Of a stretch of DNA of 43,215 nt, positions 1,760 through 25,889 are shown piece by piece (the first letter of the stretch is position 1; the number at the start of each line of letters is the position of its first letter). Origin of the DNA: Nitrosotalea sp. Its GTDB lineage: Archaea > Thermoproteota > Nitrososphaeria > Nitrososphaerales > Nitrosopumilaceae. The DNA is taken from positions 1-43,215 of the forward strand of contig JARCRW010000013.1 of NCBI GenBank assembly GCA_029850515.1, in the 5' to 3' direction. A program made the position numbers and the translations under genes. The notes beneath the pieces were generated by a model. It was not told the origin of the DNA. It saw only the letters and a program-made list of their open reading frames with translations, and searched no databases.

Positions 1760-2548
1760 ATGACCGGCAAGCTGTTTATTGTAGGTGTAGGACCTGGTCA
1801 TCATGACCATATGACTTTTCGCGCAAAGCAAGCGATTGAAGAAAGTAACACAATTGTTGGCTATGAAACATATGTCAATCTGGTTGCGGATTTGATAGAA
1901 GGAAAAGAAGTTCACAGGTATGCAATGACACAAGAAGTTGAAAGGGCACACCAGTGTATCGATCTTGCAAAATCTGGAAAGATAGTATCGCTTGTATCAA
2001 GTGGAGATCCAGGAATATATGGAATGGCAGGCTTGATCTATGAAATCTTGGCAGAAGAGGGTTGGGACAGAAAAATTGGTCTTCAGGTTGAGATAGTCCC
2101 GGGAGTTTCATCACTCAATTCTTGTGCAGCACTAGTTGGTTCTCCTCTTATGACTGATTTTGCTGTAGTAAGCATGAGTGATCTGCTTGTACCTTGGGAG
2201 ATTATAACAAAGAGAGTAGAAGCAGCAGCTCAGGGTGATTTTGTTATTGTAATATACAATCCTGCAAGCAAAAAAAGGATTCATCAATTACAAGATACGA
2301 GAAAACTTCTTCTAAAATATAGATCGCCTAACACGCCAGTAGCAATTGTAAAGGGCGCATTTCGAGAATCAGAAGAAATAGTTCTAACGGATTTGGAAAA
2401 CATGGAAAAACACAATGACAAGCTTGGTATGATCACTACTGTGATAATTGGCAATTCTTCGACTTTTATGTACAAAGATTTGATGATAAATCCACGTGGT
2501 TATACATCAAAATATAATATTGTAGAGCCGCAGCAGACCAGAAAATAA
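1760..2548 (+). CDS. cbiH: Precorrin-3B / cobalt-factor III C17-methyltransferase
   Basis: This SAM-dependent methyltransferase of the tetrapyrrole methylase family performs the ring-contraction step of corrin synthesis (CbiH in the cobalt-early route, CobJ in the late route). The visible signatures are GVGPGHHDHMT near residues 9-19, SGDPGIYGM at 81-89 and VPGVSS at 113-118, then a C-terminal half with VVIYNPASKKR. The length of 262 aa is typical of the single-domain enzyme. One nucleotide separates it from the following oxidoreductase, so the two are probably co-transcribed. No other corrin-ring gene adjoins it, so the pathway is scattered in this genome. CbiH is preferred over CobJ because archaea use the cobalt-early route. 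Confidence 0.9.
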   Translation: MTGKLFIVGVGPGHHDHMTFRAKQAIEESNTIVGYETYVNLVADLIEGKEVHRYAMTQEVERAHQCIDLAKSGKIVSLVSSGDPGIYGMAGLIYEILAEEGWDRKIGLQVEIVPGVSSLNSCAALVGSPLMTDFAVVSMSDLLVPWEIITKRVEAAAQGDFVIVIYNPASKKRIHQLQDTRKLLLKYRSPNTPVAIVKGAFRESEEIVLTDLENMEKHNDKLGMITTVIIGNSSTFMYKDLMINPRGYTSKYNIVEPQQTRK

Positions 2549-5259: not shown

Positions 5260-6345
5260 TTGAAAATTCCAATAAATATACCAATTATTGAAAAAGACGA
5301 AATAAATGAAGTACGTTCCGTATTAACAGAGAAATCTCTCACAACTGCAGCAAATGCTGGAGGAAAGAGAATACAAGAGTTTGAACAACTTTTAGCCTCA
5401 TATACAAAATCAAAATATGCCATAGCAGTAAATTCTGGAACAGCTGCTTTACAAGCTGCACTTTATGCTCTTGACATAAAACAAGGCGACGAGGTTTTGA
5501 TACCATCTTTTACATTTGTAGCTACTGCTAATTCAATCATGTCAGTTGGGGCAAAGCCCGTGTTTGTTGATATACGTCCTGAAAATTATACAATGGATCC
5601 AAGTGATCTCAAAAAGAAGATAACAAAAAAATCCAAGGCAATAATGCCAGTTCATCTATATGGAAATTTTGCATACATGGATGAAATTTCTGAGATTGCC
5701 AACATGCATAGTCTTGAGATAATTGAAGATGCATGTCAATCACTAGGAACTACATACAAGAAAAAACAATCTGGAACATTTTCAAAAATGGGTTGCTTTA
5801 GCATGTATGCTGCTAAAGTCATAACTGCTGGAGAGGGCGGAGCTATAGTTACAGATGATAAAAAACTCTTTGAGAAACTGCGCAAGATCAGAAATCATGG
5901 AATGCTTCATGGATATGACACCAGAATACTTGGACTGAATCTACGACTCCCAGAAATCTGTGCTGCACTAGCCAAAGTCCAGATGAAAAAACTTACAAAA
6001 TTTTTGGAAAAGAGAAAAAAGAATGCGACAATTCTTAGTGAACTCTTGTCTGATCTTAATGTCATATTACCTGAAGAAAGAAATGATGTTGATGTAAACT
6101 GGTATCTTTATACAATTGCTACCAAAAATCGTAATAAATTAATGAAACAGCTGAATTCACAAGGAATAGGTGCAACTGCATACTATTCCATCCCAGTGCA
6201 TAAAACTCCGTTTTACAAAAAATCTCTCAAACTTCCTCTTACTGATTGGGCTGCCAACTCTGTACTCAGTCTTCCAGTGAATCCATTGGTCACAGAAAAT
6301 AACTTGCATTACATTTCAAAGATATTGCACAAACTGATTGCATGA
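5260..6345 (+). CDS. DegT/DnrJ/EryC1/StrS-family PLP-dependent sugar aminotransferase
   Basis: The 361-aa protein has the fold-type I aminotransferase layout of sugar-nucleotide transaminases: NSGTAAL near residue 65, PSFTFVATANS near 82, MPVHLYGN near 130, EDACQSLG near 163 and the PLP-lysine region AAKVITAGEGG near residues 181-191. These enzymes aminate keto-sugars on nucleotide carriers, normally for surface glycans or glycoproteins. The start is a TTG about 28 nt after an AT-rich box; no in-frame ATG lies nearby. The stop overlaps the start of the next gene (ATGA), so the two are translationally coupled. The exact sugar substrate cannot be inferred, and no glycosyltransferases flank it. 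Confidence 0.88.
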   Translation: MKIPINIPIIEKDEINEVRSVLTEKSLTTAANAGGKRIQEFEQLLASYTKSKYAIAVNSGTAALQAALYALDIKQGDEVLIPSFTFVATANSIMSVGAKPVFVDIRPENYTMDPSDLKKKITKKSKAIMPVHLYGNFAYMDEISEIANMHSLEIIEDACQSLGTTYKKKQSGTFSKMGCFSMYAAKVITAGEGGAIVTDDKKLFEKLRKIRNHGMLHGYDTRILGLNLRLPEICAALAKVQMKKLTKFLEKRKKNATILSELLSDLNVILPEERNDVDVNWYLYTIATKNRNKLMKQLNSQGIGATAYYSIPVHKTPFYKKSLKLPLTDWAANSVLSLPVNPLVTENNLHYISKILHKLIA

Positions 6346-6821
6346 ATCTGATTGAAGAAATTGCAGGAGAATTGTGCAGGATCATTCTTCCAATAGAGGA
6401 TGAGATATTTTTCGGGGATCCAAAATCAAACATTGTAATTTGTACCCTATCAAGCATGAGTCTACTAAAAGATATTTCAAAATCATCTATTATCAAAGAG
6501 GTTGCAATAGCTGGCAGACTGTTATCTGAAAACAAAGGAATTGATTCTCTTGTGAGATCTGTAATATCAAACGAGAGAATTGACACGATCATACTATGTG
6601 GAAAAGATACACTCGGACACAAACCAGGTGATTCTTTACTCTGTTTGTACAAAAATGGAATTAATGCAGACCAGAAAATTATTGGTTCCTCAAGCCCACA
6701 TCCTGTGTTGACAGTTACAAAAAAACAAGTATCAAAATTTCAAGGACAAGTAAAAATCATAAACAAAGTAGGAGAAACTAGCATCTCACAACTAAAAACC
6801 GTGATTGAGACTCTGAGATAA
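6342..6821 (+). CDS. Stand-alone MtrA-like protein (soluble corrinoid-domain homologue of tetrahydromethanopterin S-methyltransferase subunit A)
   Basis: The 159-aa protein resembles the cytoplasmic domain of MtrA, the corrinoid subunit of the methanogen methyl-H4MPT:CoM methyltransferase. The shared landmarks, in order, are FFGDPKS (23-29), AIAG (55-58), ENKGID (63-68), ISNERI (75-80), IILCGKD (83-89), LGHKPGDS (91-98), the KNG turn (104-106), KIIGSSSPHP (112-121) and VSKFQGQ (129-135). His93 sits where MtrA has the histidine that ligates cobalt. The C-terminal membrane helix of MtrA is absent. It overlaps the DegT aminotransferase by 4 bp (ATGA). Homology is judged from memory of the family. 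Cobamide binding and any methyl-transfer role are inference, because ammonia-oxidising archaea are not known to have an Mtr complex. Confidence 0.7.
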   Translation: MNLIEEIAGELCRIILPIEDEIFFGDPKSNIVICTLSSMSLLKDISKSSIIKEVAIAGRLLSENKGIDSLVRSVISNERIDTIILCGKDTLGHKPGDSLLCLYKNGINADQKIIGSSSPHPVLTVTKKQVSKFQGQVKIINKVGETSISQLKTVIETLR

Positions 6822-6823
6822 AC

Positions 6824-7156
6824 TCAGTAACCATCTATCTGCCTTTGTCTGTTTATTTGATGCTTTTTTTGATACTCTTTTAGAATATCATCTGGAGTCA
6901 TGTTAAGCTCAAGTGAAGCTTGAATTACAAAATGCCATATGTCTATTAGCTCTTCACGAGCTGCAGCTTCATCAAATGGCGTAGGTTTTTTCCACCACTT
7001 CCAATTTGTGTTTCTTTGAAGCTCAACTGCTTCATGAATTATTGCTGTACAAAGTGCAGAAATCTTTCCCTGCATATCTTTTGGATAGCGATCAAGATTC
7101 ATCATTTTTCCAAGATTTTTTTGGAGACTGAAAATTGTATCTAGCTTGTCATCCAT
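6824..7156 (-). CDS. dUTPase/MazG-like all-alpha NTP pyrophosphatase
   Basis: The small all-helical protein of 110 aa carries two acidic metal-binding pairs: HEAVE (E42, E45) and EELID (E69, D72), the E-x-x-E ... E-x-x-D pattern of dimeric dUTPases and MazG-type pyrophosphatases. NWKWWKKP between them matches the dimeric dUTPase subgroup better than MazG. The family hydrolyses dUTP or other NTPs to monophosphate and pyrophosphate, cleaning the nucleotide pool. It ends two bases after the convergent MtrA-like gene and lies 35 bp downstream of the PfkB kinase gene on the same strand. Substrate is uncertain. Confidence 0.75.
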   Translation of the reverse strand: MDDKLDTIFSLQKNLGKMMNLDRYPKDMQGKISALCTAIIHEAVELQRNTNWKWWKKPTPFDEAAAREELIDIWHFVIQASLELNMTPDDILKEYQKKHQINRQRQIDGY

Positions 7157-12718: not shown

Positions 12719-13429
12719 TTAAGCGTAATCAAGATTTGAGATGATCATCTGATGAATCTGTTGCCAATCAGGATCATTGTCATTATTCCATTTTTCATAA
12801 AACACAACATCCTTGAGACCAAGGCGTGGTAGCCAACCAGCACTCTCTAGATCTGGCTTGTCTGCAAAATTTGATACATGTCCAAGACAAAGATAAGCTA
12901 CAGGAACTACATGATCTGGAATCTCAAGAATTCTTTTAAGATCATCATTTGAAAGTATACTAACCCAACCAACACCAATCCCCTCTGCTCTTGCTGCAAG
13001 CCAAAGATTCTGTATTGCACAACAAACACTATAGATCCCTGTCTCCGGAATACTTGATCTTCCTATGACAAACGGACCAAACTTTGTAGGATCATATGTA
13101 ATGCATATGTTTACGGTGCAGTCCAAAATTCCTTCAAGTCTTAATGACAAGTACTTTGATCTTTTTGGGTCCTCAACAAGAGTAGAGGAACGAATTCGTT
13201 CCCTGTCAAATGAATCTCTAACCTGTTTTCTGGCATCTTTATTTTTAACTAAAATAAAGTTCCATGGCTGAGAGAACCCTACTGACGGGGCATGGTGTGC
13301 AGCATTCAATATCCGTGTGAGCGCTTTCTCATCAATTGGTTCTGAAGTAAAATGAGATCTAACATCACGTCTAGAAAATACAGCCTTGTAAAATCCATCC
13401 TTTTCCTCTGGTGAAAAATCACCAATCAT
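12719..13429 (-). CDS. bluB: 5,6-dimethylbenzimidazole synthase (BluB-like nitroreductase)
   Basis: BluB breaks down reduced FMN with oxygen to make 5,6-dimethylbenzimidazole, the lower ligand of vitamin B12. The 236-aa protein carries its signatures: FSRRDVRSHF at residues 18-27, AAHHAPSVGFSQPWNF at 43-58, and GVGWVSIL near 155. The HAPS-G-SQPW pattern separates BluB from ordinary nitroreductases. The C terminus (DVVFYEKW) also matches BluB. The gene stands alone between two tRNA genes; the other cobalamin genes in the window (cbiH, NiCoT) are more than 10 kb away. The enzyme needs oxygen, consistent with an aerobic ammonia oxidiser that makes true cobalamin. Confidence 0.9.
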   Translation of the reverse strand: MIGDFSPEEKDGFYKAVFSRRDVRSHFTSEPIDEKALTRILNAAHHAPSVGFSQPWNFILVKNKDARKQVRDSFDRERIRSSTLVEDPKRSKYLSLRLEGILDCTVNICITYDPTKFGPFVIGRSSIPETGIYSVCCAIQNLWLAARAEGIGVGWVSILSNDDLKRILEIPDHVVPVAYLCLGHVSNFADKPDLESAGWLPRLGLKDVVFYEKWNNDNDPDWQQIHQMIISNLDYA

Positions 13430-13673: not shown

Positions 13674-14072
13674 ATGATGAAATTTACCATAAAAGAATCA
13701 GAATTTCTAAAGGAAAATGAGGGATGTAGAATAGCTACATGTGCAAGTGATGTACCACATATTGCTCCTGTCACATATTATTTTGAAGATGGTTTTTTTT
13801 ACTTTGCAACAGACTATGACACAAAAAAGTATGCAAATCTAAAAAAAAATAACAAAATTGCAATTTCTGTGGATATTTACCTACCTGGTCAACACAAAGC
13901 TGTTGTTGTACAAGGCTCAACTACTTTTATTGAAAAAGGCCCACAGTTCAAACGGTTATACGAAATATTTTTCAAAAAGTTTGCTTGGGTAAGAGAAGAT
14001 CCTTGGAAAGAAGAGGAAGCACCGTTTGTAAAAATTATTCCAAAAACTAAAACAAGTTGGGGTCTGGGCTAG
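13674..14072 (+). CDS. PPOX-type split-barrel flavin/F420-binding protein
   Basis: The 132-aa protein matches the pyridoxamine-phosphate-oxidase-like split barrel: an N-terminal helix ending LKENEGCRIATC, a strand pair HIAPVTYYFEDGFFYFATD, the cofactor-contacting segment KKYANLKKNNKIAISVD, then VVVQGSTTF and a C-terminal strand with IIPKTKTSWG. Proteins of this family bind FMN, F420 or heme and act as oxidoreductases or reductases of small metabolites. Which cofactor is used cannot be told. Two adjacent ATGs (13674 and 13677) could start translation. The 3' end overlaps the convergent LEA14-like gene by 4 bp. Confidence 0.8.
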   Translation: MMKFTIKESEFLKENEGCRIATCASDVPHIAPVTYYFEDGFFYFATDYDTKKYANLKKNNKIAISVDIYLPGQHKAVVVQGSTTFIEKGPQFKRLYEIFFKKFAWVREDPWKEEEAPFVKIIPKTKTSWGLG

Positions 14073-25070: not shown

Positions 25071-25889
25071 ATGGCAGACTCTTGGTCTTTTATCCTCATA
25101 TCAATACCGGTGATGCTAGTATTTGGGATGCGTCATGCACTCGATGTTGACCATATTACCGTAATTGATAATCTAGTCAGACTGCATAATGCTGCAAAAA
25201 AATCTAGATTGGTAGGAGCAGGATTTAGTTCTGGTCACATGATCTCCGTACTGGCCGAGATGATCTTCATCATATACGTAGTTGGAAGCCTTACCACTGC
25301 AGGCAACCTGCAATTTTGGGGCGGCATTGTAGGCGCAATAGCATTGGCTGCAATCGGCGGCATCAATATCTATGCAATAAAAAAATGGGGAAAAAGTGGG
25401 GCTGCAATACTTGCAAGCAAGGTTCTAAACAGAGTTGGAATACTAGGTCCTGTTGGATCTTCTTTTGTTACCGGGCTAGTATTTGGTTTAGGTTTTGATA
25501 CTGCTACACAAATTTCTGCAATAACCATATCTGCAGTGGCATCAGCTACTGCAGGAATCCAAACAGCATTGATTCTTTCTGGGTTCTTTGCCCTTGGTAT
25601 GATCCCAATTGATACACTAGACAGCGTTGTTCTTCGCTCTGCATTTTCTAGAATATTTGATACCAAGGGTTTTAGATACATGGCATATGCATTAAGTGGT
25701 CTAGCCATAATGGTATCTTCATTTGAATCATATTCAACAATAACTAGTACAAATGTACTTCCAGAATGGATAGGCCCTGTCTTGGCAGTATCAATAATCG
25801 CAATTTCTTTTGGGTATGTCTTTGCAACAAAAAAGAGACAAAGATTACATCATGATACGAGAACTAATTCTAAAGAAAATAAACTCTAG
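25071..25889 (+). CDS. NiCoT-family nickel/cobalt permease
   Basis: The 272-aa protein is an integral membrane permease with about 7-8 helices. The family signature is at the start: RHALDVDHITVIDN, with the H-x4-D-H metal motif (His22, Asp27, His28) in helix 2. Further family patterns are GFSSGHM near residue 62 and GLGFDTATQIS near 141-151. NiCoT proteins import Ni2+ or Co2+ with high affinity. Cobalt for cobalamin is the obvious use given cbiH and bluB in the window; nickel for urease is equally possible in this group. It has a strong ribosome-binding site and a palindrome upstream, unlike most genes here. Confidence 0.92.
   Translation: MADSWSFILISIPVMLVFGMRHALDVDHITVIDNLVRLHNAAKKSRLVGAGFSSGHMISVLAEMIFIIYVVGSLTTAGNLQFWGGIVGAIALAAIGGINIYAIKKWGKSGAAILASKVLNRVGILGPVGSSFVTGLVFGLGFDTATQISAITISAVASATAGIQTALILSGFFALGMIPIDTLDSVVLRSAFSRIFDTKGFRYMAYALSGLAIMVSSFESYSTITSTNVLPEWIGPVLAVSIIAISFGYVFATKKRQRLHHDTRTNSKENKL

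Follow-up and report, generated by a model that had tools for sequence, protein, structure and literature searches.

As judged from profile, structure, and orthologue comparisons, the solitary MtrA-like protein of ammonia-oxidizing archaea (AOA) is real and conserved, with the residues of its cobalt site intact. In the Nitrosotalea sp. contig analyzed here (a stretch of 43,215 nucleotides, referred to as the window), it is encoded on the plus strand at 6342–6821 by a gene, hereafter mtrA, which has an ATG start and specifies a product of 159 aa. In a Pfam profile search this product matches PF04208 with E=1e-22 (81 bits against a curated cut-off of 25), and in a PDB sequence search it is matched by the solved MtrA sequences (5laa) with E=2.7e-18, a match that a 27-member family profile lifts to E=1.6e-28. 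Foldseek, given an AlphaFold2 model of the protein (pLDDT 86), ranks 5laa/5l8x first, with E ∼1e-13, TM scores of 0.76–0.78, and 31–32% identity. In view of these PF04208, PDB, and fold scores, the match to MtrA is not due to chance. The profile and structure searches thus bear out the kinship that an earlier inspection of this DNA (the sequence-only reading) had proposed from a series of motifs, all of which were found in the order in which they occur in MtrA: GDPKS (aa 25–29), AIAG (55–58), ENKGI (63–67), ISN (75–77), ILCG (84–87), and LGHKPG (91–96). The gene is the only one with a PF04208 match in the source genome, and its dN/dS values against six relatives (0.11–0.16) indicate purifying selection; the closest pair gives 0.74, at a dS of only 0.04 that is too low to inform. 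An antisense ORF (6290–6652, minus strand) was rejected as a shadow of the coding strand, and stops interrupt it in most near relatives.

The protein shares a cobamide domain and ligand residues with the MtrA of methyl-H4MPT:coenzyme M methyltransferase (8q3v, 9qtq), but it differs from this subunit in three respects. First, it has neither a C-terminal extension nor a membrane helix (maximum 19-residue hydropathy of 1.0), in line with the missing membrane anchor noted previously. Second, its score against TIGR01111, the equivalog for the MtrA subunit of Mtr, is 76.6 bits, far below the cut-off of 249. Third, a search for MtrH (PF02007), the one other Mtr subunit looked for, gave no match in the source genome or in any of 12 genomes from the four families described below (f1, f2, f3, and f8). 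On these grounds, an identity as a subunit of the Mtr complex was rejected.

In the holo-structure of the Methanothermus fervidus MtrA homologue, His84 is the cobalt ligand and Glu54 holds it by a hydrogen bond, Asn55 contacts a corrin side chain, and both Thr53 and Gly57 contact the nucleotide tail (PMC4915002). The equivalents here are His93 (codon at 6618–6620, plus strand), which is the predicted lower axial cobalt ligand, Glu63 and Asn64 (codons at 6528–6533, plus strand), Ser62, and Gly66. The histidine that had been placed at the cobalt-ligand position from the motifs does align with His84 of the cobalamin-bound protein, and it is invariant in methanogen MtrA too. In 47 of 47 orthologues from the four families, His93, Glu63, Asn64, and Gly66 are invariant, and position 62 is either Ser or Thr. 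The cytoplasmic M. fervidus homologue (5laa; PMC4915002) and the protein studied here are both soluble stand-alone domains with the same fold and the same His, Glu, and Asn, but they are only ∼31% identical, and the latter is without the GAIPF meander, several tail-pocket residues, and MtrH. Indeed, the position of M. fervidus Asn64 in the tail pocket is occupied by Ser or other residues in the orthologues, and the GAIPF-Y/F-xEN meander of methanogen MtrA (109-GAIPF) is lost, with Pro alone kept. This meander, a criterion that comes from work on methanogen MtrA and not from Pfam, has been tied to the transfer of energy within the sodium pump (PMC4915002). Such an altered site would fit a protein that retains a cobamide without powering a pump. 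The family, fold, ligand residues, and solubility of the protein could be read directly, and it very probably binds a cobamide. It is improbable that the MtrA fold was kept and cobamide binding lost, with a role instead in binding pterins or nucleotides or in regulation, perhaps near dUTP metabolism. The diverged tail pocket and meander would suit such a loss, as would the fusions of MtrA to thymidylate synthase described below and the dimeric dUTPase gene (dUTPase_2; PF08761, E=1.7e-17) convergent with mtrA at 6824–7156 on the minus strand, an arrangement that f1 and some members of f8 retain. On the other hand, it would not explain why Glu-Asn and Gly-His of the cobalt site never vary among the 47 orthologues, and a tandem ThyX-like protein is present regardless of mtrA.

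A role in thymidylate synthesis was considered because of the convergent dUTPase and of the MtrA-thymidylate synthase fusions found elsewhere. An essential role of this kind is not supported, since no ThyA was found in the source genome or in almost any other genome examined, and the tandem ThyX-like protein occurs whether mtrA is there or not. This ∼545-aa protein with two diverged ThyX domains (L180:1408-3051; G000:C24:36192-37556) is found in f1, f2, f3, and f8. Within these families ThyA occurs only in genome G129, and in genome G084 neither ThyA nor the tandem ThyX was found. In G129, from which mtrA has been cleanly lost, the ThyA-family gene (L176:1180-2193) is absent from the relatives tested and is possibly of mobile-element origin.

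Other Thermoproteota encode fusions of an MtrA domain with a methanogen-type thymidylate synthase (TIGR03283/PF00303) at L160:4065-5378, L166:3853-5127, L167:4084-5667, L173:3913-5412, and L174:3018-4226, the L173 fusion having a pterin-binding DUF4346 domain in addition. Like mtrA, the MtrA-thymidylate synthase and MtrA-DUF4346 fusions (L160, L163, L166-L168, L173) represent MtrA domains outside methanogenesis. In the thymidylate synthase fusions, however, the domain is fused and Glu54 is replaced where it could be aligned, whereas the protein studied here is stand-alone and keeps Glu63. In the L160, L166, and L167 fusions the Glu54 position is Ala and the cobalt His is kept; the site is disrupted in L173, and L174 is not alignable. 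We found no paper on MtrA-thymidylate synthase fusions. A second MtrA-like subfamily (∼230–300 aa), recognizable by an RGND.SP motif, is present at L047-L049, L161, L162, L164, L165, and L169. Its neighbors vary by locus and include ArsR-type regulators, SO_0444/SaoE-like permeases, a P-type ATPase, and GcvH-like proteins or lipoate ligase-like genes; it is perhaps part of a metal-, sulfur-, or lipoate-linked system.

Within the order, PF04208 matches occur in 72 of 151 genomes. They were found in 31 of the 34 genomes of f1, the family holding the window (Nitrosopumilaceae), in six of f2, two of f3, and 28 of the 33 of f8, and a distinct form of 245–257 aa occurs in f12 and f13. Families f1, f2, f3, and f8 were read as ammonia-oxidizer families from records and genome traits. 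In a phylum-wide draw, the stand-alone form (∼155–165 aa) is found only in these four families. Because mtrA is single-copy there, and the stand-alone sequences form one clan in the tree, apart from canonical MtrA, the sequence data indicate that it is ancestral to f1, f2, f3, and f8 and was later lost several times. Several of the lineages that lost it have kept PPOX (see below) or DegT, and mtrA is therefore not essential. Since MtrA homologues have already been noted in non-methanogenic archaea (PMC4915002; PMC9635834), the AOA protein is a variant and not a new kind. No paper on an MtrA-like protein in ammonia oxidizers was found in a literature search that covered sources other than subscription journals.

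The gene upstream of mtrA encodes a DegT/DnrJ/EryC1/StrS aminotransferase (5260–6345, plus strand), an assignment that is solid (PF01041, E=2e-114). The ATGA overlap with a sugar aminotransferase described in the sequence-only reading is confirmed at 6342–6345, where the TGA stop of DegT (6343–6345) runs into the ATG of mtrA (6342–6344). Among the named Nitrosopumilaceae loci, DegT adjoins mtrA in 75 of 80, with a 4-bp overlap in 59 of these 75, and co-transcription of the two genes in f1 is likely. The pair is adjacent in f1 alone, with no adjacency in f2 or f8. Furthermore, DegT is cleanly absent from L113, L115, and L130, loci that still have mtrA and the genes flanking it, and no DegT orthologue was found elsewhere in these three genomes. 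Conversely, G129 keeps DegT and the dUTPase with mtrA excised, G406 keeps DegT with mtrA reduced to a decayed fragment, and in G469 DegT adjoins the dUTPase and mtrA is absent. Since either gene can persist alone, the partnership of DegT with mtrA is not obligate, and the two need not share a function; the notion of an obligate unit is largely refuted. A functional unit of the two, serving the sugar-methyl pathway envisaged earlier or a sugar-amino one, could draw on the wide retention of the overlap in Nitrosopumilaceae and on a single f3 genome in which DegT lies three genes upstream of mtrA, but with adjacency confined to one family and reciprocal losses in three plus three genomes we consider it a most remote prospect. 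The f3 locus in question (L033:2919-6462) has the order DegT, ArsA-type ATPase, PPOX, mtrA; the DegT-mtrA overlap of f1 may have arisen from an ancestral cluster of this kind.

A better candidate partner than DegT, absent from the sequence-only reading, is a PPOX-family (PNPOx-like) flavin/F420 split-barrel protein. In f2, f3, and f8, its gene immediately precedes mtrA, co-directional and with hardly any gap between the two, in 28 of 36 genomes. In f1 the two genes are not adjacent, and in Nitrosotalea and its neighbors they are ∼7 kb apart; in the window, the PPOX gene (13674–14072, plus strand; 132 aa; PF01243, E=5e-13) adjoins bluB divergently. Loss of the two genes is associated as well. 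In f8, PPOX is missing in four of five mtrA-lacking genomes versus two of 28 mtrA-bearing ones (Fisher p=0.002, ignoring phylogeny), and in f1 in three of five versus seven of 58 (p=0.025, again ignoring phylogeny), with exceptions both ways. With a model of moderate quality (pLDDT 72), Foldseek retrieves FAD-, FMN-, F420-, and heme-binding split barrels (E=2e-7). The protein has the fold and family of PPOX-class F420/flavin proteins (TIGR03618 Rv1155 group; 2hq9, 6eci, 5jv4), but it scores below every subfamily cut-off in NCBIfam, including those of the F420-dependent subfamilies (best case, 35.6 versus 79.05 bits). Because a flavin-dependent corrin reductase that serves B12 adenosylation is known (CobR; PMC4083273), a role of PPOX in keeping cobalt reduced is plausible by analogy.

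The same precedent would serve an alternative in which there is no methyl transfer and the mtrA product is a helper in cobamide handling or adenosylation, presenting base-off cob(II)alamin or a precursor to PPOX for reduction to Co(I) and onward passage to CobO, or acting in storage or escort. Its gene context is suggestive. In f8, a CobO-type adenosyltransferase gene is divergent beside PPOX-mtrA in nine of 14 loci, and metK and cbiD lie downstream in some. In the window, cobJ/cbiH (precorrin-3B C17-methyltransferase, cobamide synthesis; 1760–2548, plus strand; TIGR01466, 311.8 bits) and bluB (5,6-dimethylbenzimidazole synthase; 12719–13429, minus strand; TIGR02476, 246.9 bits) both score above the NCBIfam equivalog cut-offs (246 and 150, respectively) and, with a NicO permease (25071–25889), substantiate the corrinoid synthesis genes and nickel/cobalt permease reported before. 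Cobamide handling would, moreover, need no methyltransferase. Nevertheless, the CobO adjacency is limited to part of f8, adenosylcobalamin enzymes are expected in mtrA-lacking lineages too, and we know of no cobamide chaperone with an MtrA fold. We regard such a helper as possible and rather unlikely.

In methanogens, MesA is predicted to take a methyl group from MtrA for methionine synthesis (PMC7857596), which raises the question whether the mtrA product is a methyl carrier specifically for methionine. The corrinoid carrier fold, this predicted precedent, and the proximity of metK to mtrA in a subset of f8 are in keeping with the idea. However, f1 and f8 have a MetH-like ORF with its own pterin and B12 domains, and f2 and f3 have a split MetE, so that no carrier is needed; in addition, MetH is present in mtrA-lacking genomes too. 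As a general role of mtrA, methionine methyl transfer was rejected for this reason, and even in its specific form it is very unlikely. No enzyme that would donate or accept the methyl group was found among the 12 genomes, in which MtrH was missing and pterin-binding matches were few: two in f1 and f8, one of them inside the MetH-like ORF, and one in f2 and f3.

The reading that we prefer is that of a soluble base-off/His-on cobamide carrier, for which we would put the chances at a little under even. The cobamide would be held with His93 under the cobalt and tied to Glu63, with an exposed corrin ring that would give partner enzymes access to the cobalt. A methyl group on the cobalt would be ferried between two soluble one-carbon enzymes, and any cobalt lapsing to Co(II), as would be frequent in an aerobic cell, would be re-reduced by the PPOX flavin/F420 protein. 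The conserved PPOX neighbor and the dispensability of DegT were observed directly, whereas cobamide binding, methyl transfer, a reductase function of PPOX, and the nature of the methyl donor and acceptor are what we infer. In favor of a carrier are the profile, fold, and ligand residues, purifying selection, the single-copy inheritance of mtrA from the common ancestor of the four families, the adjacency and co-loss of PPOX, the match of the PPOX model to cofactor-binding split barrels, and the B12 genes nearby; in favor of a methyl carrier, which has a little less than an even chance of being correct, are the fusions that join MtrA domains of other members of the phylum to one-carbon enzymes linked to pterins. 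Against the carrier and PPOX reading are the missing donor and acceptor enzymes, the independence of mtrA from the type of methionine synthase, the loss of mtrA in several lineages, the mtrA-bearing f1 genomes that are without PPOX, and the changed tail pocket and meander. We slightly favor methyl transfer over cobamide handling, two possibilities that sequence cannot tell apart. The undescribed corrinoid role suggested at the outset is supported, and the two refuting conditions open to computation, a missing MtrA profile match and a missing His93 in orthologues, did not materialize. A bolder proposal, which we hold as doubtful, is that the AOA ancestor possessed an air-tolerant cobalt carrier module, consisting of the MtrA-like protein and a PPOX reductase and repurposed from a methanogenesis domain for a novel methyl-transfer or corrinoid-activation step.

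Ammonia-oxidizing archaea have been implicated as major cobalamin makers in aquatic systems, and three B12-dependent enzymes have been named in them (PMC4303638). If a fourth B12-type protein is conserved in them, the vitamin would have a further, so far unrecognized use in this highly abundant archaeal group, and because of the link to PPOX two small soluble proteins would be enough to put the question to the test. It would also show what became of a methanogenesis domain in an oxygen-breathing lineage without a methane pathway.
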